Shown: piece after piece, positions 2,176 through 36,863 of the stretch
How the letters are laid out: the number at the start of each line of letters is the position of its first letter
Numbering within the stretch: position 1 is the stretch's first letter
Origin: an uncultured Clostridia bacterium
GTDB lineage: Bacteria > Bacillota > Clostridia > Christensenellales > Borkfalkiaceae
DNA length: 37,344 bases
Assembly: GCA_947627565.1 (NCBI GenBank)
Contig: CANQWO010000016.1
Location: 1 to 37,344, forward strand
Direction: 5' to 3'
Program-made: the position numbers and the translations under genes
Notes under the pieces: generated by a model
What the model saw: only the letters and a program-made list of their open reading frames with translations
Told to the model about the DNA's origin: nothing
Database searches by the model: none

Positions 2176-3837
2176 CTATTTTGTCTCGGGCGGAATAACG
2201 GGCGGAACTGTCGGCGGGTTCTCGGATGAAGTCTCGGGCGGGTCTTCGGGCGGAATAACGGGCTCCCCCACTTCTCCGAGCAGAGCGAGCGCGGAAAGAT
2301 ATTCGTCGACGTCTTCGGGGCGGCCGATTACGGTGAGGAGGTCGTCCTCCCGCAGTTCGGTGCTGCCGTTCGGGAGAATGGTCTCGTCGCCGCGGCGCAC
2401 CTCCAGAACGTGCGCGGAGAAAGGCCAAAGGATCTCGCGGACCTCCGCGCCCGCCGCCCGCGTGACGCGCACCGTCACCGTGAGCTGCGTCGTATGCGCA
2501 TCGCGCTCCTCCAAAATCTCCTCGAGCAGCCGTTCATAGAGCGGCTCCATGCGGAAGATGCTGCCGATGAGGTACCCCACTGCCACGCTGAGCACGGCGG
2601 GGAGCAAAAACGTGAAACTCCATGTGAGTTCCACGGACATGATGATGCCCGTCATGGGTGCCTTGACGACCGTTGTGAAGAACGTGACCATGCAGATGAC
2701 GATCAGAACGTCCGCATCCGCCGCAGACATTCCCATCTTCACGAAAAGAAGGCTCATGAGCTTCCCGATGACGGCCCCCATCGCCATCATGGGGACGGAA
2801 CAGCAACAGGGGAGATCGGAGGCCGTGTTGAGGGCGGTCACCGCAAATTTTAAGAGCAGAATAATGAGCAGTGAGAGGAAAAGCGAAGCCCCAAACACGG
2901 ACATGGTATCCTCGGACGCGCTCCCGAGCGTGTCGATCAGCTCCAGACCGCTGCCCGTCACCCCGACGGAAATCAGCCCGACGACCCCCGCGAGCAGGAA
3001 GGGAAGGAGCACGTTTCCATAGCCCTTCCAGAGGCGGAATTTCTTCACATATTTGCGGATGAAGAAGAGCAGATAGTAGAACGCCACGCCGGCAAGCGCC
3101 ACGACGATCGCGGCGAGGAAGGCGAAGAGCGAAAAACGCAGCCCGGGATCGACGTCGAAGACGAAGTTTTCGAGGAAGGGTCCGACTTCGAGCCCCAGCG
3201 CGGGGCGGAGCAGGTTGCGCACGATGATGGCCAGCGCCACCGCCGAAAAGGAACAGATGAAGACCTCGGGCGTAAAGCGCTTGTGCGCCTCCTCGTAGGC
3301 AAAGATCATGCCGGTGAGGGGCGCGTTGAGCGCGATCGCGAGCCCCGCACAAGCGCCGCTCGTGATCTGATAGCGCCGCACGATGGCGTTGCGCCGAAAG
3401 ACCGTGCTGAATCCGTCGCCGCAGGCCCCGCCGATCATGAGCGCAGGCCCCTCGCTGCCGCCGGAGAGCCCCATAAACACGGCGAAGAGACCGGCCGCGA
3501 ACATGCCCGTCAGCACTTGGTACCATCGGAAGCGCAAAAGGCCCTGCGTGGCGCCCTCGACCTGCGGGAATCCGCCCCCGCGGATCATGGGGAACGCTTT
3601 CATCAGGCCGCCCATCACGATGGCGCCGAGAAAGAGCGCCGCAAAGAGGAGCGGAATAAAGGCGGGATGGGTCCGGAAAAAGCCGTAATACCCCGCGGCA
3701 AACTCCTCGCACAGTTCGAAGGCGGCCTGAAAGAGGGTGACCGCCACCCCCACGAAAAGCCCCGTGACGATCCCCGCGAAGGCGATCTGGATCCCATAGT
3801 TCACCTTGTTCCCGAATGACTTGAATTTCGTTTGCAT
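2176..3837 (-). CDS. ClC-family chloride transporter with C-terminal RCK_C-like domain
   Basis: A 553-aa membrane protein of the ClC family. The start at 3837 (MQTKFKSFGNKVNYG) is chosen because the longer frame runs into the upstream gene. Selectivity-filter regions are visible: GGGFPQ (87-92, usual GSGIP) and GGSEGP (126-131, usual GREGP) with gating Glu129. The pair Glu182-Glu183 in FAYEEAHKRF matches the internal proton glutamate of exchangers, so Cl-/H+ antiport is more likely than a channel. The third motif, normally GxFxP, reads CCCSVP, which is unusual. Residues of about 450-520 (LTVTVRVTRAAGAEV ... DDLLTVIGRPEDVDEYL) look like a TrkA-C/RCK_C ligand-binding domain, followed by a Pro/Glu-rich tail. 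The gene follows the XRE-membrane regulator by 70 bp and is probably cotranscribed with it. Confidence 0.9.
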   Translation of the reverse strand: MQTKFKSFGNKVNYGIQIAFAGIVTGLFVGVAVTLFQAAFELCEEFAAGYYGFFRTHPAFIPLLFAALFLGAIVMGGLMKAFPMIRGGGFPQVEGATQGLLRFRWYQVLTGMFAAGLFAVFMGLSGGSEGPALMIGGACGDGFSTVFRRNAIVRRYQITSGACAGLAIALNAPLTGMIFAYEEAHKRFTPEVFICSFSAVALAIIVRNLLRPALGLEVGPFLENFVFDVDPGLRFSLFAFLAAIVVALAGVAFYYLLFFIRKYVKKFRLWKGYGNVLLPFLLAGVVGLISVGVTGSGLELIDTLGSASEDTMSVFGASLFLSLLIILLLKFAVTALNTASDLPCCCSVPMMAMGAVIGKLMSLLFVKMGMSAADADVLIVICMVTFFTTVVKAPMTGIIMSVELTWSFTFLLPAVLSVAVGYLIGSIFRMEPLYERLLEEILEERDAHTTQLTVTVRVTRAAGAEVREILWPFSAHVLEVRRGDETILPNGSTELREDDLLTVIGRPEDVDEYLSALALLGEVGEPVIPPEDPPETSSENPPTVPPVIPPETK

Positions 3838-3907
3838 ACCTCGATCGCCTTTTTCGCGAAAATTTTCAAGAAAGGACGGCTCGCCCGCTATTGGGCCGCG
3901 CGCCGCA

Positions 3908-5395
3908 TCAGCGCACATACCGCCGCCGTTTGACGGCATATATGCCCGCGCAGACGAGAATGTCGGCGACAATTACGCCCCCGCCCACCGCATAGAAGAG
4001 CCCGTCGTAGAACGCATATACCGTAACCGCATAGGAATACCGCTCCCCGTCCCACGAAATCTCGCCGGAAGCATACGCATGGTCGGCGAGCGGAGGAGTT
4101 TCGGGCGGAATACGCGTGAGGACGGCATGTCTGAGGTCATAAAAGGAGAGGCCCGTCTCTTCTTCGGTAACGCACGGGGCAAAGAGTTCGGTGCAGCGCG
4201 CCATGCCCTCGCCGCGATCCAAAACGACCGTGACCGTACACCCCGCCTTGTCCTCCGTAAATTGTGCATAAAAGCCGTTCCCGAGGTCGATCCGCTCCGT
4301 GCCAGCGTCCTCTGCGCGCGCGGAGAGCGGAAGAAAATACTCGCCTTCCGCGGCCGTCTCGCCGTTTGCGGCCTCCAAGTCCCCCACAGAGAGCCAATTT
4401 TCCGTGTAGGAATCGGTGAATCTTCCGTCGATAACGATGCTCTCCATCTTCCTTACAAATTCCGCCCCGTCCCTCTCGGAAACTTGTTCATTGTGCGAGA
4501 CGGGGTAGGAAAACGCCGGCATGATCGCCATCTCGAGGAGGGCGAGCGCCGCGGGAATGAGGGCAAAACAGAAAATTTTTGCGGCCCGTTTTGCGTTGGC
4601 GCGCAGCGTATTTCGCGCCTCTTCGCCGCTCGCTTTCAGGGCGAGGGTGTAGGGCAGAACTCCGAACAAAAAGAGCCCGAGCGAAAGGACAAAAAAGCCG
4701 ACTGTGGCGGCCGTCCGCTCCGGCGAGAAGACCATTTTTGCCGACGCGAGGCCGAATGTAGCGCCGAACACGAGCGACAGCGCGGCGGGAACATACGCGC
4801 AGTAGGAGAGCTGGCGTCTGACGCGAAGGCGAAACGCCGCGTCCTCCCCGAAGGCCCTCTCCGCACTCTGCCAAAAGGCGAGGAAGACGCCCGCAGTGAC
4901 CACCATGTCCGCAAGTCCCGTGAAGAGAAGCAGCAGCCACCACTGCCAACCCGTCCATACGACGGTGGTGAAATCTTGATAAAGTCCGAAAAAGAAGAGC
5001 ACAAGCCCTGCCGTGAAGACAGCCGCCGTGATACACGACTGCGTGCAAAAACGGGACAATGTTTTCTTCGGCCCGGCAGGCTCCGCGCTTGTCGGCGCGC
5101 CGTTCTCTTGCCCAACGCCTGCGTCCTCTTCAAAGGGTTCGCCCGCCATTTCGGGCCGCGCGCCTTTTCCGTTTTTTTCTCCGCGCAACAGCTCGTCTGC
5201 CGTCACGCCATAGAGGTCGGCGAGCGCGGGCAGGAGGAGAATGTCGGGCATGGCCGTCCCGCATTCCCACGCGGAGAGCGTGCGGTTGGAGATGCCGAGC
5301 CTGTCGGCGACCTCCTGCTGGGTCAGACCGTGCGCGCGGCGCAATCGTTTCAGAAAATCCCCGATCCTGTTCTCTTGCATAACGTCCTCCTCCAT
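3908..5395 (-). CDS. XRE-family regulator fused to a multi-pass membrane domain
   Basis: A 495-aa protein. The N-terminal ~65 residues are a lambda-repressor-type helix-turn-helix (GLTQQEVADRLGISNRTLSAWECG). A linker rich in Gly, Glu and Pro follows. Then come five hydrophobic segments (for example WWLLLLFTGLADMVVTAGVF), an extracytoplasmic soluble stretch of about 170 residues, and a final membrane helix before the basic end KRRRYVR. The start at 5395 has AAGGAGG six bases upstream; a second start at 5380 (MQENRIGDFLKRL) also has GGAGGA, so both are possible. The design suggests a membrane-tethered transcription factor sensing the envelope or an external ligand. It may control the ClC gene that follows it. 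Confidence 0.85.
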   Translation of the reverse strand: MEEDVMQENRIGDFLKRLRRAHGLTQQEVADRLGISNRTLSAWECGTAMPDILLLPALADLYGVTADELLRGEKNGKGARPEMAGEPFEEDAGVGQENGAPTSAEPAGPKKTLSRFCTQSCITAAVFTAGLVLFFFGLYQDFTTVVWTGWQWWLLLLFTGLADMVVTAGVFLAFWQSAERAFGEDAAFRLRVRRQLSYCAYVPAALSLVFGATFGLASAKMVFSPERTAATVGFFVLSLGLFLFGVLPYTLALKASGEEARNTLRANAKRAAKIFCFALIPAALALLEMAIMPAFSYPVSHNEQVSERDGAEFVRKMESIVIDGRFTDSYTENWLSVGDLEAANGETAAEGEYFLPLSARAEDAGTERIDLGNGFYAQFTEDKAGCTVTVVLDRGEGMARCTELFAPCVTEEETGLSFYDLRHAVLTRIPPETPPLADHAYASGEISWDGERYSYAVTVYAFYDGLFYAVGGGVIVADILVCAGIYAVKRRRYVR

Positions 5396-5414
5396 AGCGT
5401 CCTCCTTCCCCCAC

Positions 5415-5443
5415 ATTTTAACAAAGGGAGAGCGGGAAAGCAA
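5415..5443 (-). promoter_or_regulatory. Promoter of the XRE-membrane regulator
   Basis: Minus strand TTGCTT (5438-5443), 17-bp spacer, TAAAAT (5415-5420), about 20 bases before the start at 5395. Confidence 0.65.
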
Positions 5444-5479
5444 GGCATGGCGGGTGGAATTTATCTCGCTTTCATGGAA

Positions 5480-7222
5480 TCAGCCCGAAAAGCCGGCGTG
5501 GTAGAGTTCGGCATAGAAGCCGCCCCTTGCAAGGAGCGCGGCATGCGTGCCCTGTTCGACGATCTTCCCCTCCCGCATGACGAGAATGAGATCGGCGTTC
5601 TCGATGGTGGAAAGTCTGTGGGCGACGATGAAACTCGTCCGCCCCTTCATGAGCGCCGCAAACGCCTCCTGCACGATCTTCTCGGTGCGCGTGTCGATAT
5701 TGGAAGTCGCCTCGTCGAGAATGAGCATGGGCGGGCGACAGAGCATGACGCGGGCGATGCAGAGGAGCTGTTTCTGCCCCGCGGAAAGCACGCCTTCGTC
5801 GCCGATGACGGTCTCATATCCCTGCGGCAGACGCATGATGAACGCATGCGCCTTGACCGCCTTGGCCGCCTCCACCATCTCCTCGTCGCTGCAATCGGGC
5901 CGCCCCATTTTGAGGTTTTCGCGCACGGTCGCCGTCTTGAGCCACGTCTCCTGCAGCACCATGCCGTAGTTCTCCCGCAGCGAGGCGCGCGTGACGGTGC
6001 GCACGTCCCGTCCGTCCACGTAGATCGCCCCCTCCTGCACGTCGTAGAACCGCATGAGGAGATTGACGAGCGTCGTCTTGCCGCATCCCGTCGGGCCGAC
6101 AATGGCGACGCGCATGCCCGCCTGCACCGCGAGATCGAAATGCTTGATGAGCTCCCGGTCGGGCGAATAGGAAAACGCGACGTCCTCTGCCGCGACCTCC
6201 CCGCGAACCCTGCCGAGCGCGGGAAGCCCCGCGTCCGACGGCTCCTCCTCTTCCCCGATGAGCGAGAAGAGGCGCGCCGCACAGGCGAACGCGTTCTGGA
6301 ACTCCGCCACGACCTCGGAGATCTCATTGAACGGCTTGGTGTATTGGTTGGCGTAGGAGAGAAACGTCATGAGCATCCCGGCAGTAAACGGGGCACCCAT
6401 GTCCGCGGTCATGAGCACAAAAAGCCCGCCGGAGAAGGCGACGGCGGCGTAGACGAGGGCATTGATGAAGCGCGTCGTCGGGTTGGTCGTCGACGAGAAA
6501 AATACGGCTTTCAGCGAGGCCTGCCGCAGCGATTCGTTCTTCCCTTCGAAGATCGCCTCGTTGGCCTTCTCGCGGGAGAAGGCCTTGACGACTTTGAGTT
6601 CGCCGAGCATTTCGTCCACGAACGCCGCCTCCTCCGCACGGGACTCCGCCTGCGCCTTGAACGTCTGATAGGTGCGCGAGGCGATAAAGCGCGCCACGAA
6701 GATGGAGAGCGGCGTGATGCAGAAGACGACGAGCGCGATCTCCCAGCGGATGGCGAGCATGATGCCGAGCACTCCGAAGATGGTCAAAATCCCCGTAAAA
6801 AATTGGTTGAACGCGAGGAGCAGGCCGTCGGAGAACTGCTCCGCGTCGGAGACAATGACCGAGGACACGTCGCCGTAGGGGCGGTCGTCGAGGTAGCGCA
6901 GGGGGAGCCGGGCGAGCTTTCGGAAGGCGTCGCGGCGGATATCCCGCAGCACGCCGTAGGCAATGCGGTTGTTGCATACGCTCAAGATCCACTGAAAGAC
7001 GAGGACGCCGACGGCGGAGACGCCGACGCCGAGAATGTTTTTGCGCACGCCCGCCATGTCGACGCCCGTCTCCAAAATGCAGTCCACGGCGCGCCCCGCA
7101 AAATAGGGCGCGAGCAACTGCCCCGCGGCGACCGTGAGCGCGGAGACGATCGTCACAAGAAGCGGGACCGTATACGGTTTGAGATAGCGGAGAATGCCCG
7201 CAAAGGCCTTGCGATTTTTCAT
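5480..7222 (-). CDS. ABC exporter subunit, permease plus ATPase (catalytic half)
   Basis: A 580-aa half-transporter with six N-terminal membrane helices and a C-terminal ATPase. Walker A is GPTGCGKTT, the Q-loop VLQETW, the signature LSAGQKQLL, Walker B MLILDEATS with the catalytic Glu present, and the H-loop VAHRLSTI. Its start overlaps the stop of the next ABC gene by four bases (7219-7222), so the two are translationally coupled. Together they form a heterodimeric multidrug-type exporter of the BmrCD/LmrCD/TM287-288 class. The signature LSAGQ (not LSGGQ) is the partner half of the degenerate ATP site. The substrate cannot be told. The segment FVLMTADMGAPFTAGML, in the loop between helices, carries one copy of the dispersed motif at 6386-6408. 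Confidence 0.92.
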   Translation of the reverse strand: MKNRKAFAGILRYLKPYTVPLLVTIVSALTVAAGQLLAPYFAGRAVDCILETGVDMAGVRKNILGVGVSAVGVLVFQWILSVCNNRIAYGVLRDIRRDAFRKLARLPLRYLDDRPYGDVSSVIVSDAEQFSDGLLLAFNQFFTGILTIFGVLGIMLAIRWEIALVVFCITPLSIFVARFIASRTYQTFKAQAESRAEEAAFVDEMLGELKVVKAFSREKANEAIFEGKNESLRQASLKAVFFSSTTNPTTRFINALVYAAVAFSGGLFVLMTADMGAPFTAGMLMTFLSYANQYTKPFNEISEVVAEFQNAFACAARLFSLIGEEEEPSDAGLPALGRVRGEVAAEDVAFSYSPDRELIKHFDLAVQAGMRVAIVGPTGCGKTTLVNLLMRFYDVQEGAIYVDGRDVRTVTRASLRENYGMVLQETWLKTATVRENLKMGRPDCSDEEMVEAAKAVKAHAFIMRLPQGYETVIGDEGVLSAGQKQLLCIARVMLCRPPMLILDEATSNIDTRTEKIVQEAFAALMKGRTSFIVAHRLSTIENADLILVMREGKIVEQGTHAALLARGGFYAELYHAGFSG

Positions 7223-8928
7223 GCTCCCTCCGTCTGCGACCGATAGATCTCTTGATAGAGCGGACAGCGCGCGAGGAGCTCGTCGTGGGTACCCATGTCC
7301 GCGATATGCCCCTCGTCCATCACCAAAATCTTGTCTGCGTCCCGCACCGAGGACACCCGCTGGGAGACGAGAAAGACCGTACAGGAAAGCGTTTTGAGCG
7401 CCGCCCGCAGGCGGGCGTCCGTCGCATAATCGAGCGCGGAGGAACTGTCGTCGAGGATGAGGATGTCGGGCTGTTTTACCAAAGCGCGGGCGATGGTGAG
7501 CCGCTGTTTTTGCCCGCCCGAAAGGTTACGGCCGGCCTGCGCGATCTCCCCCGCAAGGCCGCCCTTGGCCTCCACGACGTCGGCGGCCTGCGCAAGTTCC
7601 GCGGCGCGCATGAGGGCCGCGTCGTCGGCGTTTTCGCACCCCCATCGCAAATTGGAGGCGACCGTCCCGCGGAACAGGACGGCCTTCTGCGGCACATAGC
7701 CGATCTTGGCGCGAAGTTCTTCGGCGGGGATGGCGTTGACGTCGCGGCCGAAGAGGCGGACCTCCCCCGCCGTCGCCGCATAGAAGCGGGGCAAAAGCCG
7801 CACGAGCGTACTCTTTCCCGCGCCCGTTCCGCCCAAAATGCCGATCGTCTCCCCGCGCTCCGCCGTAAACGTAATGCCCGAGAGCGCAGGCGCGCCGCCC
7901 CCGTCGTAAGTGAATCCGACGTCGCGGAAGACGACGACGGGGGCACCCATGTCTGCGGTGTCCCCCTCCGTAAGCGTAGAAGGCTCGCCCTCCGCGTCTA
8001 AGACGGCCCCGATGCGCTTCATGCACGACGCGGCCTTTGCGACGGTGACGATCAGGTTGGCGAATTTGACGAGTTCGACGAGAATGAGCGCAAGATAATT
8101 GTAGAGCGCAATGACGTCCCCCTGTTCCAGCGCGCCGTGATCCACGCGGATCGCGCCGACTGCGACGAGGACGATGACGGCGACGTTGACGAGCAGATAG
8201 GTGAGCGGCCCCGTGAGCGCGGCGATGCGGCCGACGCGGACCTGCGACGTATAGAGCGCCTTCGTCCTTTGGCGAAACTCCGCGCGCTCCCCCTCCTCCT
8301 TGCGGAAGGCGCGGATGACGCGCGCGCCCGTCAGATTTTCACGGGCGGAGAGATAGACGTCATCGAGCCGCTCCTGCACGTTGCGGTAGCGGGGCACACA
8401 GACCGCCATCACCGCATAGATCACGACGACAAGCAGCGGGATCAGGCCCAAAAAGACGAGCGCCGTGCGCGCGTCGACAAAGAATGCCATGGCCGTGGCG
8501 CCGAAGACGATGATGGGCGAACGGAGCAGAAGGCGCAGCGTCATGTTGACGCCCGTCTGCACCTGTTGCGTATCGCTCGTCATGCGGGTGAGCATAGAGG
8601 CCGTACCCATGTCGTCGATGCGGCTGAAGGAAAAGGACTGCATCTTGCGGAAGAGGCGGCCGCGGAGCGTCGCCGAAGTCCCCACCGCGGCCTTTGCGGC
8701 AAAATACTGCGCCGTGAGCGCGAAGCCCAGCCCCAGCACGGCGAAGAGCGCAAGGATGAGGCAGGCGTGCAAAATGTAGGCCCTGTCCCCGTTTTCGATG
8801 CCGACATTGACGATGGCGCGGATGACGAGGGGGACCATGAGCTCCATCATGGCCTCGAGCAGCTTGAAAAGAGGCGACAAGATCGCCTCGATCCGATAGC
8901 GTTTCAGTGCGGAAAAGAGATGTTTCAT
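7219..8928 (-). CDS. ABC exporter subunit, permease plus ATPase (degenerate half)
   Basis: A 569-aa partner of the exporter at 5480. Membrane domain first, then the ATPase: Walker A GGTGAGKST, Q-loop VPQKAVLF, signature LSGGQKQRL. Walker B is DILILDDSSSALD with Asp in place of the catalytic Glu, and the H-loop His is replaced (VSQRVSSV). Both changes are typical of the non-catalytic half of heterodimeric exporters. It begins six bases after the CaxA-type exchanger ends, without a clear ribosome binding site of its own, so the exchanger and both ABC genes probably form one transcript under the Mn-type riboswitch at 9956-10050. Three copies of the dispersed motif fall inside it (7289, 7937, 8602), encoding IADMGTHDE, TADMGAPVV and DDMGTASM. 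Confidence 0.92.
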   Translation of the reverse strand: MKHLFSALKRYRIEAILSPLFKLLEAMMELMVPLVIRAIVNVGIENGDRAYILHACLILALFAVLGLGFALTAQYFAAKAAVGTSATLRGRLFRKMQSFSFSRIDDMGTASMLTRMTSDTQQVQTGVNMTLRLLLRSPIIVFGATAMAFFVDARTALVFLGLIPLLVVVIYAVMAVCVPRYRNVQERLDDVYLSARENLTGARVIRAFRKEEGERAEFRQRTKALYTSQVRVGRIAALTGPLTYLLVNVAVIVLVAVGAIRVDHGALEQGDVIALYNYLALILVELVKFANLIVTVAKAASCMKRIGAVLDAEGEPSTLTEGDTADMGAPVVVFRDVGFTYDGGGAPALSGITFTAERGETIGILGGTGAGKSTLVRLLPRFYAATAGEVRLFGRDVNAIPAEELRAKIGYVPQKAVLFRGTVASNLRWGCENADDAALMRAAELAQAADVVEAKGGLAGEIAQAGRNLSGGQKQRLTIARALVKQPDILILDDSSSALDYATDARLRAALKTLSCTVFLVSQRVSSVRDADKILVMDEGHIADMGTHDELLARCPLYQEIYRSQTEGA

Positions 8929-8934
8929 GGCAAG

Positions 8935-9933
8935 TTACGCAAGAAAGAGATAGACGTAGTAGCCGATAAAGAGGAGCAGCATCGCCGCCCCGGAGGCGCG
9001 CCCCAGCTTGCGCCTTCCGAGGAGGGCGCAGAGCAGCAGTACGACCGCGGCGCCGAGCGCGACCAGCGCGTCGACGAGATTGCCCGCGAGCGTGAACGTC
9101 AGCGGGTAGAAGAGCGACGCAATGCCCGCGACAAAAAAGATGTTGAAGATATTGCTCCCGATGACGTTTCCGACGGCGATGTCCGTCTCGCCCTTGGAAG
9201 CGGCCATCACGGACGTCACGAGCTCGGGGAGCGACGTCCCGATGGCGACGACGGTCAGGCCGATGATGCGCTCCGTCACGCCGAAATAGGAGGCGATATA
9301 TTTGGCGCCGTCGACGAGCAGCGTCCCGCCGCCCACGACGAGCCCGAGGCCGACGAGCGTGAGCAGGATCAGAAACCACGTCTTCTCCTCCATGCGCGCA
9401 AACCAGCGGCCGAGCGCTGTTTTCGGAGGCTCTGTCTCAGACATGCCCCCCTCGTTTATCGTCTGCGCCTCGTTCCGTTCGCGAAGCGTCGTGCGAATGA
9501 GGAGCGCCATGTAGCCCGTAAAGACGGCAAGCAGGATGAGTCCGTCCCACCATTCGAGGGCGCAGTTCCACGCGCCCAACCCCACGAGGAGCGCGGAGGC
9601 GAGGAGCAGCACGGGAATATCCGCCGTCAGCGAATTTTTTCGGACGGGAAGGGGATGGATGAGCGCCGTAAAACCGAGGATGAGAAAGATGTTGGTGATG
9701 TTGCTGCCCACGACATTCCCGATGGAGATATCGGTGGAGTGCCCGATGGCGGACGTCACGGAGACGGCGAGTTCGGGCGCGCTCGTACCGAACGCGACCA
9801 CGGTGAGCCCGATGACGAGCGGAGAGATCTTGCACTTCCCCGCGATCCCGGCCGCACCGTCGACAAACCAATCGGCCCCCTTGATGAGAAAGGCAAACCC
9901 GAGAATGACCAAAAAAATCCAAAGATACAGCAT
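8935..9933 (-). CDS. CaxA/YrbG-type calcium(manganese)/sodium exchanger
   Basis: A 332-aa integral membrane antiporter with two inverted halves. The signature alpha repeats are clear: VVAFGTSAPELAVSV with SIGNVVGSNITNIF in the first half, and VVAIGTSLPELVTSV with AVGNVIGSNIFNIF in the second. Start at 9933 (MLYLWIFLVILGFAFLIKGADWFVDG) with AGAAGG upstream. The family exchanges Ca2+ or related divalent cations for Na+ or H+. A yybP-ykoY-like Mn2+ riboswitch leader suggests that here the physiological cargo includes Mn2+, as in other riboswitch-linked members. First gene of an operon with the ABC exporter pair. Confidence 0.93.
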   Translation of the reverse strand: MLYLWIFLVILGFAFLIKGADWFVDGAAGIAGKCKISPLVIGLTVVAFGTSAPELAVSVTSAIGHSTDISIGNVVGSNITNIFLILGFTALIHPLPVRKNSLTADIPVLLLASALLVGLGAWNCALEWWDGLILLAVFTGYMALLIRTTLRERNEAQTINEGGMSETEPPKTALGRWFARMEEKTWFLILLTLVGLGLVVGGGTLLVDGAKYIASYFGVTERIIGLTVVAIGTSLPELVTSVMAASKGETDIAVGNVIGSNIFNIFFVAGIASLFYPLTFTLAGNLVDALVALGAAVVLLLCALLGRRKLGRASGAAMLLLFIGYYVYLFLA

Positions 9934-11523: not shown

Positions 11524-12111
11524 CTACAAAATTCCCTCCCCGAGGATCTTGGCGCCGATGGCAATGAGTACCAATCCGCCGACGAGCCGCGCACGGTCGG
11601 CAAAGCGCCCGCCGATCCGATTCCCCGCAAAGACTGCGCACGCCGACAGCACAAATGTGACGGCTCCGATCAAAACCGAGCACCATATCACAGACATGGG
11701 TAGGCCGTTTTCCGTCTCGACGGCGAGAAACGTCACGCCGACGGCGAGGGCGTCGAGGCTGGTGGCAATGCCCTGTAACACAATTTCGCCTGCCGATACG
11801 GGCCGCGGGCAGGACAGTTTGAGCGTGCGCTTTTCCTGCTGTCCGGAAAATTCCAGCACGGATTTTCCGCCGATCGCGAGCAGGAGGACAAAGGAAAGCC
11901 ACGGCGCGATCTTTTCGACGAGAAAGGAAAAGAACGTACCGAACGAATAGCCGAAGAGCGGCATGATGAACTGCATAAAGCCGAAGACGCCCGCAATGAG
12001 GACAACTTTTTTCAGCCCCATGCGCGGCTCCGCCATGCCGTCGGTCATGCCGGCCGCAACGGCGTCCATCGCGAGCGCGACGCCCGTCAGACAAACTTCC
12101 CAAATCTCCAT
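11524..12111 (-). CDS. mntP: Manganese efflux pump MntP
   Basis: A 195-aa membrane protein with six hydrophobic segments and the two family repeats around conserved Asp residues: VALAMDAVAAGMTDGM near the N terminus and IATSLDALAVGVTF in the middle. The length matches MntP (about 185-190 aa). MntP exports Mn2+ across the cytoplasmic membrane and is a classic yybP-ykoY riboswitch target, in line with the leader found here. After helix four the sequence LAVETENGLPMSVIW seems a few residues longer than usual and holds the 18-bp sequence shared with comEC (11693-11710). The next gene downstream has its own promoter. Confidence 0.9.
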   Translation of the reverse strand: MEIWEVCLTGVALAMDAVAAGMTDGMAEPRMGLKKVVLIAGVFGFMQFIMPLFGYSFGTFFSFLVEKIAPWLSFVLLLAIGGKSVLEFSGQQEKRTLKLSCPRPVSAGEIVLQGIATSLDALAVGVTFLAVETENGLPMSVIWCSVLIGAVTFVLSACAVFAGNRIGGRFADRARLVGGLVLIAIGAKILGEGIL

Positions 12112-12627: not shown

Positions 12628-14208
12628 TCAGAACAGCGGCGCGAACAGTTTGGCGATCTCGCAGAGCCCGCGCGTGACGACGTTCCGCTTGGCGTCTTCG
12701 AGCGTTTGCTCCTTGGAGACGGCAAACGTCGAGACCATGTCCTCCTTGATGCTGTAGAGCGCGAGCGTGCGATACATAAACACGGCGTTCTCAAAATGAT
12801 AGAGGAACGAGCGGTAATCGAGATTGATGGTGCCGAGAACGGCGACCTCGTCGTCGGCCAGCATCATTTTGGCATGGACAAACCCGGGGGTATATTCATA
12901 AATATGTACGCCGCCCTCGATCAGCGCCTTATAGTTGGAGCGCGTGAGCGCGAAGACCAATTTTTTATCGGGAATGTGCGGGGTGAGGATGCGGACTTCC
13001 ACGCCGCGCTTGACGGCCGAGACGAGCGCCTCCCGCATGCGGTAATCAATGATGAGATAGGGCGTCGTGATCCACACATACCGCCGCGCCTCGTTGATGA
13101 TGTTGATGTAGACGTCCTCGCCGAGATGCCGCCCGTAGAGCGGATAGGGCCCGTCGCCGTAGGGCTGGACATAGCCGCGTTCCGCAAACACCTCGAACGT
13201 CTCGGGAATGTAGGGCGCGACGTCCTCGACCTTCCGCTTTTGCATGCCGTAGAGGCGCAGGAACATGAGCGTCAGATTTTTGACCCCCTCCCCTTCGAGG
13301 CGGAGAGCCGTGTCCTTCCAATAGCCGAAGGGGTGCGTCTCGTTGATGTATTCATCGGCGAGATTGAGCCCGCCCGTATAGCCCACTTTGCCGTCGATGA
13401 CGGTGATCTTGCGGTGGTCGCGGTTGTTGTGGACGTTGGTCACGACGGGCACAAACGGATTGAATTTCACGCACTTGATGCCCTTCTTTTGCAGCGTCTT
13501 ATAGTAGTTGAGATGGATCTTACTCATGCAGCCGATGTCGTCGTACATGACCCGCACTTCGACGCCCGCCTTGACCTTCTGCTCGAGGATCTCCAAAATG
13601 GCATTCCAGAACTTGCCGCGCTCGAGGATAAAGTATTCGAGGAAGATGAACTTCTCGGCCCGCTGTAAATCTTCGAGGAGGTGCGGCATCATCTCCTCCC
13701 CCGAGGCGAAATACTGCGTCTGCGTGCCGCGGCACGGCACGGCAAAGGGATTGGCGGTGGAGAGCGCCACGCTCACGGCCGCCCAGCGGCCCATCTCGGC
13801 GTGCATCGTCTCGCGGGAGACGCCGGGCTGTTCGTAGGGAGCGGTGTTGTTCCCCGTCGCGCGGTAGATTCGCCGCATCTTGCGCGAGGGACGATGAGAG
13901 GAAAACGTCGCATAGATGGCAACGCCGAAGATGTTGAGGCCGACGATGCACAGGATCCACGGGATCTTGGTCTCGGGGACCATGTCGCGGTTGGCGGCGT
14001 GCAGGACCGCGATCACGTCGATGATCCAGAGGATCACCGTCACCAGCGTGGAGACAATGCCCTCCGCGCGCGGGAAGAAGTGCACGATGATGACCTCGGG
14101 CAGGAAGATCGCGCCCAGCGTCAACGCCACAAACAGCAAAAACAGCACAATGATGGTCAGCCCCACGAGGGAAAAGCGGCTGAATATTTTCTTCAAAATC
14201 TTCTTCAT
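12628..14208 (-). CDS. cls: Cardiolipin synthase (phospholipase D family)
   Basis: A 526-aa membrane enzyme that joins two phosphatidylglycerols to make cardiolipin and glycerol. It has two or three N-terminal membrane helices (residues about 13-95) and two HKD motifs, HRKITVID around residue 270 and HAKMMLAD around residue 450, each followed by the usual GGLN or GTINLD block. The start at 14208 has AAGGAGG four bases upstream and overlaps the stop of the preceding secreted protein gene (ATGA). It is the last gene of the trmL - secreted protein - cls operon. The product acts at the cytoplasmic membrane. Confidence 0.93.
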   Translation of the reverse strand: MKKILKKIFSRFSLVGLTIIVLFLLFVALTLGAIFLPEVIIVHFFPRAEGIVSTLVTVILWIIDVIAVLHAANRDMVPETKIPWILCIVGLNIFGVAIYATFSSHRPSRKMRRIYRATGNNTAPYEQPGVSRETMHAEMGRWAAVSVALSTANPFAVPCRGTQTQYFASGEEMMPHLLEDLQRAEKFIFLEYFILERGKFWNAILEILEQKVKAGVEVRVMYDDIGCMSKIHLNYYKTLQKKGIKCVKFNPFVPVVTNVHNNRDHRKITVIDGKVGYTGGLNLADEYINETHPFGYWKDTALRLEGEGVKNLTLMFLRLYGMQKRKVEDVAPYIPETFEVFAERGYVQPYGDGPYPLYGRHLGEDVYINIINEARRYVWITTPYLIIDYRMREALVSAVKRGVEVRILTPHIPDKKLVFALTRSNYKALIEGGVHIYEYTPGFVHAKMMLADDEVAVLGTINLDYRSFLYHFENAVFMYRTLALYSIKEDMVSTFAVSKEQTLEDAKRNVVTRGLCEIAKLFAPLF

Positions 14209-18856: not shown

Positions 18857-18889
18857 GGGCGCGCCGCGGACATGGTCCGCGGCGCGCCC
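18857..18889. repeat. 15-bp inverted repeat with the ATG of the dispersed motif in its loop
   Basis: GGGCGCGCCGCGGAC (18857-18871), loop ATG, GTCCGCGGCGCGCCC (18875-18889), a perfect 15-bp stem. There is no T tract on either strand, so it is not a standard intrinsic terminator. Its centre CGCGGACATGGTCCGCG looks like a symmetrised form of the window's dispersed motif. Confidence 0.7.
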
Positions 18890-18944
18890 CTCTCCCCCAC
18901 GCTGTAAGTCTCATTGCGCGCCGTCCGTGAACAGGCGCGGGCGC

Positions 18945-28382: not shown

Positions 28383-28898
28383 ATGCGCCCCTATAAACTT
28401 TTTCTCTACGTCCTGCTCGCCGTCTTAACGTTCGGCGTGATGGGCACCCTCCTCGCATGGAGCCTCACCCAAAAAGACGTCCTGCTCGCCGTCTCGGCCT
28501 CGCTCGGCGCCGTGTACCTTGTCTATTTCATCGGGCTCCTCTATCTCAACAACAAGACGGGTTGGAAGGACGAAAAGACCGTGCGCGGCCGCATCGCCGG
28601 CACGGAGACCATGCTGCTGCATCTCTACTACTCCGACGAAGCCAAGCGCCGCCTCGTCGCGGCCGCCTACCATCCCTACGATCCCGAGATTTTTATCAAA
28701 ATATTGAAACAGAACGGCTCCAATCCGGACATGGATATGTTTGACGACGTCTACATCGGTTATGCCATCATCAAGCCAAAGGAGCTGAAAGCGGCGCGGA
28801 ACAAGACCGTCGTGCTCGCGGAGGACGTGCTTGCCGCGTTGAAAACGGCTCCCGGGCTCGAAGAATTTATCGGAGGAAACACCTTTGTCTGCGAATGA
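28383..28898 (+). CDS. Hypothetical membrane protein, 171 aa
   Basis: Not recognised. Two N-terminal membrane helices (about 5-26 LFLYVLLAVLTFGVMGTLLAW and 31-54 LLAVSASLGAVYLVYFIGLLYL), then a cytosolic basic/acidic domain of about 115 residues with DVYIGYAIIKPKELKAARNKTVV. The start at 28383 has GGGAGA upstream. A possible promoter TTGCTT-17-TACCAT lies about 25-50 bases upstream. Its 3' end overlaps the start of the YggS-type gene by 14 bases, so the two are coupled. Confidence 0.65.
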   Translation: MRPYKLFLYVLLAVLTFGVMGTLLAWSLTQKDVLLAVSASLGAVYLVYFIGLLYLNNKTGWKDEKTVRGRIAGTETMLLHLYYSDEAKRRLVAAAYHPYDPEIFIKILKQNGSNPDMDMFDDVYIGYAIIKPKELKAARNKTVVLAEDVLAALKTAPGLEEFIGGNTFVCE

Positions 28899-29620: not shown

Positions 29621-30499
29621 ATGCCTGCAAGTATTACGCATGAACTCGTCGCGCGGGAGACGCTCGGGCTGCTTTCTCCCTGCGTCCGCGACCTCATCGG
29701 CCGCGCGAGGGATTACTACTATCTCGGGGCGCAAGGGCCCGATCTGTTTTTCTTTTTACAGCCGCTCTCGAAAGAGATCAACTTCGGGCGGCTCCTGCAT
29801 CGCGCGCGCGTCCGCGATTGGTTCGAGGGCATGCTCCTCGCGCTGCCCGATTTCACGGGCGCGGAATTTGAGGACTGCCTTGCCTATGTCTTCGGCTTTT
29901 GCTCCCACCTCTCCGCGGACGTCGTGTTTCACCCCTTCGTCTATCACTTTTTGGAGGCGTATGACGCCGACCGTCTCACGCACCAGGAGATCGAAAACGA
30001 TTGGGACGTCTATTTTCTCCGCGCGCTCGACGGGAGGGAGGTCACGCGCCATTCCTATCCCTTTGATCTGAAACAGATCGCCGACGACGGCATTTTGTAT
30101 CGCTTCGTGACCGACGCGGCCCGCTATTACGGGCGGGAAGTGCCTGCAGGCGCCTTCCGCCGCATGTGCCGGGGATTTCATCTCTACCTCTCGCACACGC
30201 ATGCCGGGCACGGCAGAGTGCTCTCCTGTTTCGGTTTCGAAGAACTCTATCCGCGGGAAGAGCCGAGCGCACTCTATCTCGGCGGCAAGCAATTCGAGCG
30301 ACTGAGCGAGGGCCGCGGCAAGGACGCCGACGAGCTGTTCGCGCTAGCTGTGACGGAGAGCGCGGCGCGCATACGAGCCTTTTTGGAAGCGTTCAACGCG
30401 GACATGCCCCTGCCGAAATGCTTCTCGCTGCACATGCTGACGGGAAAACCGCTCGAAGATCAACCCTCCATGGAAGACAAAAACGACCCGTCGGAATAG
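29621..30499 (+). CDS. Zinc-dependent phospholipase C-like protein
   Basis: A 292-aa protein resembling the bacterial Zn_dep_PLPC family found in Clostridia. Conserved metal-ligand patterns are visible: MPASITHELVARE at the start, YYYLGAQGPDLFFF, the central AFCSHLSADVVFHPFVYH-like block (FGFCSHLSADVVFHPFV), and LYLSHTHAGHGRV. The start at 29621 has AAGGAGG. No signal peptide is seen, so it is probably cytoplasmic. Substrate unknown. Single gene, closed by the bidirectional terminator at 30528-30566. Confidence 0.82.
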   Translation: MPASITHELVARETLGLLSPCVRDLIGRARDYYYLGAQGPDLFFFLQPLSKEINFGRLLHRARVRDWFEGMLLALPDFTGAEFEDCLAYVFGFCSHLSADVVFHPFVYHFLEAYDADRLTHQEIENDWDVYFLRALDGREVTRHSYPFDLKQIADDGILYRFVTDAARYYGREVPAGAFRRMCRGFHLYLSHTHAGHGRVLSCFGFEELYPREEPSALYLGGKQFERLSEGRGKDADELFALAVTESAARIRAFLEAFNADMPLPKCFSLHMLTGKPLEDQPSMEDKNDPSE

Positions 30500-31699: not shown

Positions 31700-31720
31700 G
31701 GTCCCTCCTCTCTTACCGCC

Positions 31721-31749
31721 ATTATACCCGAAACCGCGCAACTTGTCAA
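31721..31749 (-). promoter_or_regulatory. Promoter of the nucleotidase-guanylate kinase gene
   Basis: Minus strand TTGACA (31744-31749), 17-bp spacer, TATAAT (31721-31726). Confidence 0.88.
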
Positions 31750-31760
31750 GCCGGAACGGG

Positions 31761-31789
31761 TTGACAAACCGACGCATTTGTGGTATACT
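31761..31789 (+). promoter_or_regulatory. Promoter of the DHH-DHH-surE operon
   Basis: TTGACA (31761-31766), 17-bp spacer, TATACT (31784-31789). Its -35 lies 11 bases from the -35 of the divergent promoter. Confidence 0.88.
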
Positions 31790-31821
31790 GCTGTTCTCAA
31801 TGAAAATCAACAGGAGATACC

Positions 31822-32760
31822 ATGTTCCGAGAAGCCTACAACCTGATCGAAGCGTTTGATACGATCATCATCCACCGCCATTCCCACCCCGACGGCGACG
31901 CGCTCGGCAGTCAAATGGGACTTGCGCAGCTCATCAAGGACAACTTCCCCCAAAAGACCATCTATATGGTCGGCGACATTGCGACGCGCCTGCCCTTTAT
32001 CGAGGTGACGTTCGACGAGATCCCCGACGAGGCCTATGAGGGCGCGCTGGCGGTCATTCTCGACTGCGGCTCCTCCCGCCTCATCTGCGACGAACGCTAC
32101 AAGCTCGCCGCCAAGACGCTCCGCTTCGACCACCACATCTACTGCGAACAGATCGCGGATGTGGACGTCGTAGACAGCACCTATGAGAGCGCGTGCGGGC
32201 TCGTCACGATGTTCGCGAAGGAGACCGGCCTCAAACTTTCCCCCGCCTCGGCGTCCGCGCTCTATTTGGGCATGGTGACGGACAGCGGACGGTTCGTCTT
32301 CGATTCCACGACGGCGCGCACGTTCGAACTCGCGGCCTTCCTCCTCTCGCAGCCCATCGACCTCAACACGCTCTACTACAACCTGTATGCGGAGGAATTT
32401 TCGGACATCATCGAAAAGGCCGATAACATGCACAAGATCAAGTTCACCGGACACAACGTCGCCTACATCTATACGCCCCGCGAAGAGCTGCCCGAGGGCA
32501 GCGAGGCGGCCCCGACCTCCTCGGGCATGGTGGGCCTCATGCGCGACATCCGCGGCGTGTTCATCTGGGTCAACTTCACCGAGGGCGACGACGGCGTACA
32601 CTGCGAACTTCGATCCAACCGCTATAACATCAATCCCGTCGCCGTCAAATACGGCGGAGGCGGACACAAAAAGGCGAGCGGATGTACCGTGCCCGACCGG
32701 GAGACCGCCATGCGGCTCCTCGACGATTTGGACGCGCTGAGCGCGACGGAGCCCGTATGA
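31822..32760 (+). CDS. DHH/DHHA1 phosphoesterase, NrnA-like (first of a tandem pair)
   Basis: A 312-aa protein with the DHH motifs: HRHSHPDGDALGS near residue 18, AVILDCGSS, the DHH triad in LRFDHHIYCEQIADVDVVD, LGMVTDSGRFVFDST, and a C-terminal DHHA1 domain ending in KYGGGGHKKASG. Relatives cleave nanoRNAs or pApA (the product of c-di-AMP breakdown) and pAp. CAGGAG lies six bases before the ATG. It overlaps the next, related gene by four bases. The presence of CdaA in the same window makes pApA hydrolysis a reasonable guess. Confidence 0.9.
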   Translation: MFREAYNLIEAFDTIIIHRHSHPDGDALGSQMGLAQLIKDNFPQKTIYMVGDIATRLPFIEVTFDEIPDEAYEGALAVILDCGSSRLICDERYKLAAKTLRFDHHIYCEQIADVDVVDSTYESACGLVTMFAKETGLKLSPASASALYLGMVTDSGRFVFDSTTARTFELAAFLLSQPIDLNTLYYNLYAEEFSDIIEKADNMHKIKFTGHNVAYIYTPREELPEGSEAAPTSSGMVGLMRDIRGVFIWVNFTEGDDGVHCELRSNRYNINPVAVKYGGGGHKKASGCTVPDRETAMRLLDDLDALSATEPV

Positions 32761-34456: not shown

Positions 34457-34502
34457 ACCGCTTTGCTACCCGGTTTTCTTCTTCGTAAACCCATCAAAAC
34501 AG

Positions 34503-34525
34503 AGGCCTCCCCGTTGGGGAGGCCT
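34503..34525. terminator. Bidirectional terminator between surE and tdk
   Basis: AGGCCTCCCC / GGGGAGGCCT stem around GTT. Followed by TAAATTTT on plus and CTGTTTTG on minus. Confidence 0.85.
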
Positions 34526-34592
34526 TAAATTTTGTGAAAAACATTGCGATGAGCGTGGACATGGTACCCGCAAACGACGTCTCGGTCCGCTT

Positions 34593-35195: not shown

Positions 35196-35244
35196 AATCC
35201 CAATGATCTGCGGATCGTTTCACGCGCGATCCCCCGCGCTGTCT

Positions 35245-36546
35245 TCAAGCGATGATATCGTAAACGAGCGGCTCATCCTCGGGCATGGTGGCCTCGATCG
35301 TCGTCGCCGCGCGCAAAATCTTCTCGGCTTCCGCGAACGTAGCAGGCCGATCGGAATACAGCGTCGCGAGCGTTTCCCCCTTGCGCACGAAATCGCCCGT
35401 CTTCTTCTCCAGAAGAATGCCCGCGCCGGGATCGATTGCGTCCTCCACCCGGTTGCGGCCCGCGCCGAGCGCCAGCGCGGCGAGCCCGTAGGCCTCGGTG
35501 TTCACCTTCCCGATATACCCCTCCTCGCCGCTCACGACCGCGTGCGCATACTTCGCCTTTTGGAACGTCTCGGGGTGCGCGATACAGTTCGCGTCGCCGC
35601 CCTGCGCCGCGACCGTCTGCTTGAGTTTTTCGAGCGCACTGCCGTCTTCGATCGCACGTTGCGCAAGCGTCCTGGCCTCATCGGGGGTACCCATGCCCGC
35701 GAGAGACAGCATGTAAGAGGCCAGCGTGAGGCAGACACCGGTGAAATCTTCGGGGCCGTTTCCGCGCAGCGTTTCGACCGCTTCGACGACTTCGAGCGCG
35801 TTGCCGATGGCGTGGCCGAGCGGGCGGTCCATGTTGGTGATCAGCGCCACCATCTTCTTCCCCGCGCGCTTGCCGATGTCCACCATGAGCCCCGCAAGTT
35901 TCTTGCTGTCCTCCACGCTCTTCATAAACGAGCCGCTGCCCGTCTTCACGTCGAGCACGATGCAATCGTCGTCCGCGGCAAGTTTTTTCCCCATGATGCT
36001 CGAGGCGATGAGCGGCATGCTGTCTACCGTCGCCGTGACGTCGCGGAGCGCATAGAGCTTTTTATCGGCGGGCGCGAACTGCTTGGACTGGCCCACGATG
36101 GCGAGCCCGATCTCGTTGACCTGGCGGATGAAATCCTCCTCGGAGAGCGTCGTGCGGAAGCCGGGAATGGATTCGAGCTTGTCCACGGTGCCGCCCGTGT
36201 GACCCAGGCCGCGGCCGCTCATCTTGGCGACTTTCACGCCGAAGGAGGCGACGATGGGCGCGACGACGAGGCTCGTCTTATCCCCCACGCCGCCCGTGGA
36301 ATGCTTATCGACCCGCACGCCGTGAATGGCGGAAAAATCCAACCGCGCGCCCGAATCGCGGATGGCAAAGGTGAGATCGGAAGTCTCCCTGACGGTCATA
36401 TCCCTGAAATAGACGGCCATCAGCAGAGCGGAAATCTGATAATCGGGAATGGAGCCGTCGGTGACGCCCCGAATGAAGAAATTGATTTCTTCGGCGGAGA
36501 GCTCGCCGCCGTCCCGCTTTTTTTTGATGATATCATACATACGCAT
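35245..36546 (-). CDS. pdp: Pyrimidine-nucleoside (thymidine) phosphorylase
   Basis: A 433-aa enzyme, normal length, splitting thymidine, uridine or deoxyuridine with phosphate into base and sugar-1-phosphate. Signature SGRGLGHTGGTVDKLESIPGF is complete; KHSTGGVGDKTSL and VDVKTGSGSF-like (LDVKTGSGSFM) phosphate-binding blocks and the C-terminal PYNP domain (AGILLEKKTGDFVRKGETLATLYS) are present. The start at 36546 (MRMYDIIKKKRDGG) has GGAGG nine bases upstream. Its promoter overlaps ACCATGGGTGCGG, a relative of the dispersed motif. First gene of a pdp-tdk unit. Confidence 0.95.
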   Translation of the reverse strand: MRMYDIIKKKRDGGELSAEEINFFIRGVTDGSIPDYQISALLMAVYFRDMTVRETSDLTFAIRDSGARLDFSAIHGVRVDKHSTGGVGDKTSLVVAPIVASFGVKVAKMSGRGLGHTGGTVDKLESIPGFRTTLSEEDFIRQVNEIGLAIVGQSKQFAPADKKLYALRDVTATVDSMPLIASSIMGKKLAADDDCIVLDVKTGSGSFMKSVEDSKKLAGLMVDIGKRAGKKMVALITNMDRPLGHAIGNALEVVEAVETLRGNGPEDFTGVCLTLASYMLSLAGMGTPDEARTLAQRAIEDGSALEKLKQTVAAQGGDANCIAHPETFQKAKYAHAVVSGEEGYIGKVNTEAYGLAALALGAGRNRVEDAIDPGAGILLEKKTGDFVRKGETLATLYSDRPATFAEAEKILRAATTIEATMPEDEPLVYDIIA

Positions 36547-36586
36547 AAGATTCCACCTCCGTGATCCACGAAATTTGATTGATCTT

Positions 36587-36615
36587 ATTATACCATGGGT
36601 GCGGAAGAAAAGCAA
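36587..36615 (-). promoter_or_regulatory. Promoter of pdp-tdk
   Basis: Minus strand TTGCTT (36610-36615), 17-bp spacer, TATAAT (36587-36592), 41 bases before the start codon. Confidence 0.8.
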
Positions 36616-36635
36616 GAGCGCAGGAAAAATCGAAG

Positions 36636-36662
36636 AAAAAAACAGCGAGGGAATTTCCTCGC
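36636..36662 (-). terminator. Terminator upstream of pdp
   Basis: Minus strand GCGAGG / CCTCGC stem (36657-36662 with 36645-36650) followed by TTTTTTT (36636-36642). Most likely the end of the transcript of the leucine-rich repeat gene at 36885. Confidence 0.75.
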
Positions 36663-36786
36663 CATCTTTCAGACGCTCGTTCTGCATACATTTCGGCAAT
36701 CTCATTCATTTGCAGCTTTCTGCGCATTGGCGCGTCCTTAAATTGTGTGCTCCTAACGGCCCCGTGCCACAATAGAAGCAGATACC

Positions 36787-36863
36787 GCGGACATGGGTGC
36801 CACTTGCGGACATGGTACCGCCAAAATAAACGCCACCAAAACAGACATCGCGGACATGGTACC
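36787..36863. repeat. Three copies of the dispersed GGACATGG motif
   Basis: GCGGACATGGGTGCC at 36787-36801, GCGGACATGGTACC at 36806-36819 and GCGGACATGGTACC at 36850-36863, all in the same orientation. The second and third also share the following GCC. Spacings are unequal (4 and 30 bases). Confidence 0.8.

Follow-up and report, generated by a model that had tools for sequence, protein, structure and literature searches.

The window analyzed here is contig C16 (CANQWO010000016.1, 37,344 nucleotides) of an uncultured Clostridia genome, GCA_947627565.1 (G000; 1,804,522 bases, 63 contigs, 99.63% complete). Family matches in the window identify two MsbA-like ABC transporters, a Ca/Na antiporter, cardiolipin synthase, YpeB, ComEC, polynucleotide phosphorylase (PNPase), pyrimidine nucleoside phosphorylase, a cell wall hydrolase, a DisA-type domain, two DHH proteins, SurE, and thymidine kinase. 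Among the 80 named loci kept for the PNPase gene, the nearest is the uncultured Clostridia metagenome-assembled genome L029 (94% identity), and the nearest named species is Candidatus Gallimonas faecavium (L032, 88%). These genes and the DNA between them carry a recurring short DNA motif, which is the subject of this study. The first-pass annotation of the window had noted 17 copies of it at 15 locations. All of these locations hold the motif: 16 of the copies are among the 29 window sites that score above 12 with a motif matrix, a threshold at which the reversed matrix finds 1 site, and the 17th is an exact GACATGGGTGCC at 36790. The copies are as follows.

2894..2924, plus strand: score 24.3, antisense in a 392-residue open reading frame (ORF).
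4886..4916, minus strand: score 17.5, sense (ADMV) in a helix-turn-helix domain gene.
5241..5271, plus strand: weak copy, score 12.3.
6380..6410, minus strand: score 28.3, sense (TADMGAPFTA) in an MsbA-like ABC transporter.
7276..7306, minus strand: score 23.5, sense (IADMGTHDEL) in the second MsbA-like ABC transporter.
7930..7960, minus strand: score 29.3, sense (TADMGAPVVV).
8590..8620, minus strand: score 22.3, sense.
9434..9464, plus strand: score 25.1 (GACATGCCC variant), antisense in the Ca/Na antiporter.
11687..11717, plus strand: score 30.9, antisense in a 240-residue ORF.
12718..12748, minus strand: score 24.8, sense in cardiolipin synthase.
14434..14464, plus strand: score 35.9, the best in the window, antisense (NGAPMP) in a 352-residue ORF.
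14937..14967, minus strand: score 22.2, sense in a 352-residue ORF.
16181..16211, plus strand: score 16.7, antisense in YpeB.
17318..17348, plus strand: score 18.8, antisense in YpeB.
17829..17859, plus strand: score 28.1, antisense (DGTMSE) in YpeB.
18863..18893, plus strand: motif core, score 16.6, intergenic, at the center of a GC-rich perfect inverted repeat (GGGCGCGCCGCGGAC-ATG-GTCCGCGGCGCGCCC).
20116..20146, plus strand: score 27.5 (GACATGCCC variant), antisense in an amino acid kinase/ACT gene.
24069..24099, minus strand: score 22.7, sense in ComEC; orthologous site in L029 scores 29.9.
24985..25015, plus strand: score 27.6, antisense (NGLPMS) in ComEC; orthologous site in L029 scores 28.3.
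25146..25176, minus strand: score 31.2, sense in ComEC; orthologous site in L029 scores just 8.1.
28722..28752, plus strand: score 16.7, outside named genes.
30395..30425, plus strand: score 18.5, outside named genes.
32409..32439, minus strand: weak copy, score 15.0, in a DHH gene.
32518..32548, plus strand: weak copy, score 12.1, in a DHH gene.
34552..34582, plus strand: score 24.3, outside named genes.
35276..35306, plus strand: score 23.9, antisense in pyrimidine nucleoside phosphorylase.
35674..35704, minus strand: score 25.8, sense in pyrimidine nucleoside phosphorylase.
36790..36801, plus strand: motif core (GACATGGGTGCC), below the matrix threshold, first of three tandem copies.
36803..36833, plus strand: score 13.9, second of three tandem copies.
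36847..36877, plus strand: score 30.3, third of three tandem copies.

The DHH/DHHA1 genes form a tandem pair with a slight overlap (window 31822-33737).

The matrix was derived from a seeded model with a third-order background and with reversed or column-swapped matrices as controls. It was trained on 437 kb (the window and 20 stretches), the same DNA that was later scored, and it finds 118 sites there compared to 0 for the reversed matrix and 2 and 3 for two column-swapped matrices at the same threshold. Unconstrained motif discovery by expectation maximization fell onto codon periodicity and was dropped. Word counts point the same way as the matrix. Over all of G000, GGACATGGTACC occurs 42 times and its reversed word 0 times, CGGACATGGK 313 times compared to 2, and CNCGGACATGGK 233 times compared to 2. 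Allowing up to two mismatches, the window holds 11 matches to GGACATGGTACC (shuffles: mean 1.05, largest 4) and 14 to GACATGGGTGCC (mean 2.57, largest 11). Under a fourth-order Markov model of the 437 kb, words around CGGACATGG rank first in over-representation among 10-mers and near the top among 12-mers; CGGACATGGT was observed 34 times with 1.4 expected. Scores above 15 are reached by 240 sites in 816 kb of G000 and by 1 site of the reversed matrix, which extrapolates to about 530 copies in the whole genome by length or about 650 by core count. The first-pass annotation had put the copy number far above chance, and these counts lie far over the Markov model. Coincidence is refuted by the 313 to 2 ratio and by the recurrence of the motif between genes as well as in different reading contexts within them.

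The motif is about 30 bp long, tripartite, and non-palindromic. Its consensus is about ATCKCGGACATGGKT.sC.CgtwT..CGTCw, also given as YCKCGGACATGGKW.SC.C.kWT..sCGTC, with a T-rich box at about +12 to +18 and CGTC at +21 to +24. The length of 12-15 bp assigned at first was too short, and the neighboring AAACGG recorded with it is the +12 to +18 box read from the other strand. The downstream boxes were checked at sites picked by the core alone to avoid circularity (176 in 816 kb of G000, 93 in 568 kb of G025, 53 in 290 kb of G016, and 26 in 131 kb of G009). T at +23 has a frequency of 0.68 in G000, 0.57 in G025, 0.74 in G016, and 0.65 in G009 compared to a background of 0.20-0.21. Thus, the downstream boxes are visible in four species without selecting for them. 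The pooled value for G028 and G005 is 0.26 (23 core sites in 400 kb).

The placement of the copies bears on the idea that the motif is a regulatory element, either a promoter or a transcription factor operator. Its GGAC-N17-CGTC box spacing resembles the promoters of extracytoplasmic sigma factors. Genes were called with a simple hexamer model, which is imperfect because family matches place the genes at window 3806-7246 on the strand opposite to the one it chose. The 192 sites scoring above 12 in 26 loci are 84 antisense, 69 sense, 35 intergenic, and 4 partial. Intergenic DNA is mildly over-used, with 36 of 146 GGACATGG copies intergenic and a coding fraction of 0.89. This modest enrichment fits a regulatory element, but most copies lie within genes in both orientations, and those in intergenic DNA show no orientation toward genes: of the copies flanked by co-directional genes, 12 share the direction of these genes and 19 oppose it. 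We did not see a promoter- or terminator-like layout, inverted-pair terminators included, among 57 intergenic sites. A regulatory role is therefore very improbable. Contrary to the first-pass annotation, the ATG of the core is not always in frame; sense copies are in phase 0 in 55 of 69 cases, and the 84 antisense copies fall in phases 1, 2, and 0 in 53, 28, and 3 cases.

The motif has no strand polarity. The majority gene strand carries 102 of 217 sites in six contigs, and 71 GGACATGG copies run with the local majority gene strand compared to 75 against it. KOPS (FtsK orienting polar sequences), SRS (SpoIIIE recognition sequences), and Chi sites are polar along the replichore, and the motif differs from them in this respect. 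Two octamers in the sampled contigs of G000 are strand biased: relative to the local majority gene strand, CGAAGAGG has 124 occurrences in the same direction and 77 in the opposite one, and the corresponding numbers for TGAGATAG are 14 and 45. These are possibly polar chromosome motifs or codon effects. In the dense contigs described below, the spacing of the motif is clustered, with a mean of 1.5 kb and a coefficient of variation of 1.36.

The first-pass annotation had also considered a very small inserted repeat, of which the Rickettsia palindromic elements are a known example; a mobile element resembling repetitive extragenic palindromic (REP) sequences is a variant of this idea. Motif-bearing peptides were aligned to their genus relatives, and an insertion-type gap is found at the motif in 43 of 272 alignments. 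Gaps are somewhat less common in shifted control windows (17/252, 25/232, 17/228, and 14/213), as an inserted repeat would predict. However, in most alignments the motif codons replace orthologue codons one for one. An inserted repeat is thus not supported: the majority of copies took the place of codons already present, and the likeness to Rickettsia-type in-frame insertions fails. A REP-like repeat with CCAATGGAGGGGG and GGGGTAGGGGGGTGGG words is present in G012 (L109-L118), and all 20 sampled CCAATGGAGGGGG copies are non-coding, unlike the motif. Words related to this repeat occur in G016, and G005 has another repeat family (CGAAATGACAAA). The inserted-element explanation is largely refuted, and we give it only a slight residual probability.

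Comparison with orthologues also addresses constraint at the protein level. Peptides of the ADMGT type can fit the ABC transporter consensus, which would favor such a constraint. In ungapped orthologous alignments, the motif scores above 11 in 8 of 12 cases in L029, 5 of 15 in G016, and 16 of 64 in G025. The corresponding numbers in motif-poor genomes are 0 of 13 in G005, 0 of 10 in G035, 0 of 8 in G012, and 0 of 34 in G028. ORFs of both strands contribute to these figures, so some sites are doubled, and alignments off by one base count as misses. The absence of the motif from the motif-poor orthologues argues against protein constraint. The same DNA motif appears in several reading contexts and between genes, so conserved protein residues do not fully explain the motif peptides. 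We regard chance and protein constraint together as the least probable explanation, with next to no weight. The 16 of 64 sites kept in G025 indicate that single sites turn over while the domain described below stays. Amino acid identity at the motif compared to its flanks is 0.55 versus 0.65 in G028 and 0.53 versus 0.63 in G012 and G035 among the motif-poor genomes, and 0.57 versus 0.67 in G009, 0.67 versus 0.72 in G025, and 0.62 versus 0.65 in G016 among the motif-rich ones. It is higher at the motif in L029 (0.68 versus 0.59). Identity is mostly lower at the motifs, suggesting that the copies tend to sit at variable protein positions.

Strong enrichment of the motif is restricted to a single genus close to Candidatus Gallimonas, judged from 103 genomes of that genus and 290 others of the class. 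Copies of CNCGGACATGGK range from 0 to 301 in the genus genomes with a median of 18 (reversed word, 0 to 5); 18 of the 103 have at least 90 copies, and 27 have 5 or fewer. The maximum in the 290 other genomes is 20 (G128, control 3), and the two genomes of the same family among them have 0 copies each. In the table of named loci, which spans L029-L069 plus later loci only where GACATGGK occurs more than twice, L029 alone is dense, with 9 GGACATGG copies in 22 kb and a control of 1. A ComEC tree of 31 genomes places the five that have at least 90 copies (G000, G083, G016, G080, and G002; the other 13 of the 18 rich genomes are outside the tree) in one clade of ten genomes with support of 100/99. 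This clade also includes G012 (1 copy) and G077 (2 copies). The motif was therefore either amplified in the clade or kept there and lost elsewhere. Viral contigs gave one match each to an 18-bp pattern in the 80 listed of at least 120 stretches, a neutral result that speaks neither for nor against any reading.

Within a genome, the motif is confined to part of the chromosome. The motif map covers 816 of the 1805 kb of G000 and 568 kb of G025. The counts of sites scoring above 12 in G000 contigs are bimodal. The dense contigs are C3 (62 in 95 kb), C7 (44 in 60 kb), C10, which carries dnaA (38 in 50 kb), C2 (45 in 99 kb), C8 (20 in 40 kb), and the window (29 in 37 kb). The sparse contigs C5 (4 in 76 kb) and C9 (4 in 58 kb) are near the reversed-matrix counts of 3 and 3. 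Two contigs are mixed: C4 has 12 sites in 90 kb with 7 in the last 10 kb, and C1 has 31 in 151 kb, mostly in its right half. When only scores above 20 are counted, 133 sites fall in the 341 kb of five dense contigs compared to 2 in the 307 kb of free stretches, and the reversed matrix finds 0 in either set. This last grouping was made after the counts had been seen, and the contrast was therefore tested on new sequence from other species. The regions around FtsZ have 8 sites scoring above 12 in 154 kb (3 in G009, 1 each in G016, G002, and G018, and 2 in G030). The regions at dnaA (G009, G016, and G002) and ComEC (G009, G016, G002, and G018) and a stretch in between in G009 have 93 in 209 kb. 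The reversed matrix finds 0 and 1. G018 has no dnaA region in this set and G030 is covered at FtsZ only, so the contrast within a species refers to four further species. Bare GGACATGG cores at FtsZ number 0 in G009, 3 in G016, 2 in G002, 0 in G018, and 0 in G030. There are 8, 11, and 5 at dnaA in G009, G016, and G002; 12 in the in-between stretch of G009; and 6, 9, 2, and 4 at ComEC in G009, G016, G002, and G018. The description of the motif as dispersed on both strands, in and between genes, is thus correct for its placement and too broad for its extent.

The free block is not accessory DNA. Two free stretches of C4 were compared with the sequence retrieved from other species; relatives exist there for 14 of the 17 genes in one stretch and 12 of the 14 in the other, and the gene order is the same in G025. 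The block contains FtsZ, FtsW, MutS, MutL, ThrS, and a CarB-DapF fusion. This fusion is a single ORF of 1372 residues (L248:2426-6541, in C4) that joins the carbamoyl-phosphate synthase large subunit to diaminopimelate epimerase, and its counterpart in G025 aligns over 1350 residues at 87%. A reading of this gene by eye as RNA polymerase was rejected. The edge of the dense domain is shared by two species. In G000 (C4:80,400) as in G025 (C2:93,745), the final site on the dense side falls within spoIVA, some 620 nt into this gene, and the mean protein identity of the two genomes over the edge contig is about 71%. Sites scoring above 14 number 7 in the dense last 10 kb of G000 C4 and 1 in the 79.5 kb on its free side. 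In G025 C2, there are 23 in 94 kb of dense DNA and 5 in 125 kb of free DNA, one of them strong. The low density of sites places the edge only within several kb. We did not find a second motif of comparable strength in the free DNA of G000 and G025. A palindrome, CATAGTACTATG, occurs 8 times in the 306 kb of free DNA from G000, and CATAATACTATG occurs 5 times in the 218 kb of free DNA from G025.

These properties bear on the proposal that the motif is the recognition site of a DNA methyltransferase or another modification or restriction system. Copy number varies strongly within the genus, as might be expected of an exchangeable system. However, conservation is graded over about 30 bp and the copies are confined to one domain, and we know of no modification recognition sites of this kind. 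We consider this explanation as improbable as a regulatory element.

The dense domain contains dnaA in all five motif-rich genomes looked at (G000, G025, G009, G016, and G002), which raises the question of where the free domain lies. Most genes on G025 C2 are on the plus strand and run from the dense to the free side, and the dense side of G000 C4 and C1 is upstream on the majority strand, with local exceptions in each case. A free part closer to the terminus would be expected to show this direction. Because C4 corresponds to C2, the three contigs provide two independent cases. The motif-free contig C9 has converging genes and a change in the sign of the GC skew; strand switches also occur in dense C3. 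A search with a dif consensus gave no convincing dif site. The free end of C1 carries dnaB, a gene that is often near the origin in Firmicutes. It is plausible, but unproven, that the free domain is the terminus region.

A DNA uptake sequence, a self-recognition tag for natural transformation that spreads through recombination and preferential uptake, known from Pasteurellaceae and Neisseriaceae, would account for many of these observations. Uptake sequences, both the uptake signal sequences (USS) and the DNA uptake sequences (DUS), resemble the motif in occurring hundreds of times at scattered, non-inserted positions on either strand, within genes as well as outside them, and sites that turn over between species would suit such a process. 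Uptake sequences are present throughout the core genome. The motif differs in being confined to a domain and nearly absent over syntenic core gene blocks, which is not expected of uptake drive and is the strongest argument against this explanation. The Haemophilus USS consists of a core and AT tracts over about 31 bp (PMC7811141), and the core, T-rich box, and CGTC box of the motif have a similar layout. The first-pass annotation had pointed to ComEC in the window as a hint of uptake. ComEC is present in 57 and DprA in 59 of 61 genus genomes, which is compatible with transformation but does not discriminate. The pilus/secretion ATPase family PF00437 is more informative. There is a strong match in motif-rich G083 (301 copies, full-length ATPase) and in G025 (121 copies), in favor of uptake. 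In contrast, G000 has no match over the cut-off (best 22.2 compared to 24.9 bits), nor do G009 and G016, and G002 and G066 have weak matches (25 with neighbors and 31 bits). Genomes with a strong PF00437 match carry fewer copies, with a median of 6 (n = 17) compared to 25.5 (n = 44; p = 0.007), or a median of 9 (p = 0.04) when G034, G001, and G027 are left out (14 of 17). This is a Mann-Whitney test that does not correct for phylogeny and that scores the weak matches in G002 and G066 as absent. Also unfavorable to uptake, no alternative strong word of the motif kind was found in 200-kb samples of motif-poor species, and G035 and G028 had none. The layout thus fits an uptake signal while the ATPase data, the host, a member of the Clostridia, and the confinement do not, and we consider this explanation unlikely, though it is the foremost of the alternatives.

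A related possibility is a regional molecular drive, in which a transfer or conversion process acts on only a portion of the chromosome and spreads the motif there alone. Gene transfer particles would be one example and release of DNA from an amplified region another, with ComEC and DprA acting in the recipient. Such a process would explain the confinement to a domain, the turnover of sites, and the presence of ComEC and DprA without pili. However, an edge in the same gene in two species at about 71% mean protein identity requires that the process be stable and limited to that domain. We consider regional drive about half as probable as uptake.

Our preferred interpretation, to which we assign a probability of roughly 0.5, is that the motif represents several hundred recognition sites of a putative sequence-specific DNA-binding protein that mark one large chromosome domain. 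The protein would bind motif copies across the domain that contains dnaA, and the bound sites would organize or mark this domain, most likely as a form of spatial bookkeeping of the chromosome. Candidate roles are compaction of the domain, tethering to the membrane, or steering the division or sporulation septum relative to the marked DNA. Selection would maintain the density of sites over the domain while single sites turn over. Of the functions first suggested for the motif, a chromosome-organizing site fits best, being non-polar, gene-neutral, and domain-confined.

Known domain marks provide a framework for this interpretation. The RacA and RefZ sites used in Bacillus subtilis sporulation are palindromic, few, and biased to part of the chromosome. 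The motif shares the bias, and G000 has the sporulation genes YpeB and SpoIVA, but the motif is non-palindromic and has hundreds of copies. The SlmA and SeqA sites of Escherichia coli and the Noc sites of B. subtilis are marks of a chromosome domain that are read by proteins, as described in PMC3116907 and PMC4726725. In the same sources, SlmA sites are mainly in coding regions and their exclusion from the terminus (Ter) is conserved in related species, and SlmA and Noc sites are palindromes of 12-14 bp at about 24-70 positions. The motif resembles them in being sequence specific, confined to part of the chromosome, and kept so between species. It differs in being about 30 bp, non-palindromic, tripartite, and present in hundreds of copies. 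A single ParB was found in 22 of 23 genomes, which indicates that there is no Noc-like paralogue; SlmA/TetR proteins were not searched. The differences in palindromy and site number, together with the single ParB in the case of Noc, argue against membership in the SlmA or Noc families. The matS motif of the E. coli Ter macrodomain (13 bp, 23 copies, within Ter only) was found in silico before its protein, MatP (PMC3116907). Here too, a domain-specific short motif has been seen before its putative protein, but it is dense in the dnaA region and thus not terminus-only. The best working analogy is a SlmA/Noc-like function of sites that do not belong to those families.

Several results weigh against the domain-mark interpretation. 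No binding protein was found, with the ParB family as the only candidate tested, and the single ParB is shared by motif-rich and motif-poor genomes alike. The motif is scarce or absent in many members of the genus, and the role would therefore be dispensable. T at +23 reaches 0.62 in the pooled motif-poor genomes G012 and G035, a value from only 13 core sites in 400 kb; TC in these sites is just 0.15, and there is no T-rich box. The bare-core contrast is weaker in G002, where the FtsZ region has 2 GGACATGG in 22 kb, the dnaA region 5 in 19 kb, and the ComEC region 2 in 20 kb, and the three copies at FtsZ in G016 lie within 40 kb. The map of G000 and G025 is partial and in unordered contigs. 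The dense contigs have gaps of up to 23.6 kb, and their clustered spacing is not regular. Finally, codons for the same amino acid are not significantly more identical in the motifs than in the flanks in four motif-rich comparisons (Fisher p = 0.53 for G025, 0.18 for G016, 1 for L029, and 0.10 for G009), which speaks against a strong constraint on each site.

The motif is not described in the titles and abstract openings surveyed on uptake sequences in Clostridia, the distribution of uptake signals, Gallimonas, nucleoid occlusion sites, and Firmicutes domain motifs. We judge the chance as somewhat short of even that it represents something new: a chromosome-domain code written as a non-polar, tripartite mark of about 30 bp roughly every 1.5 kb, largely through genes, with a putative reader protein, or, alternatively, a signal of the uptake type that is limited to one domain and would be the first in a Clostridia lineage. 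Its hundreds of copies and its core-plus-tract layout, together with the lack of a detected pilus ATPase and the limitation to one domain, caution against taking every USS-like motif for an uptake sequence. Few motifs are known to mark just part of a bacterial chromosome, among them the SlmA, SeqA, Noc, and MatP sites. If our interpretation is correct, this motif would signal position on the DNA at a density tens of times that of the SlmA or Noc sites. A genus whose members carry from none to hundreds of copies is a natural experiment on domain marking, and comparison of its motif-rich and motif-poor genomes should point to the reader protein.

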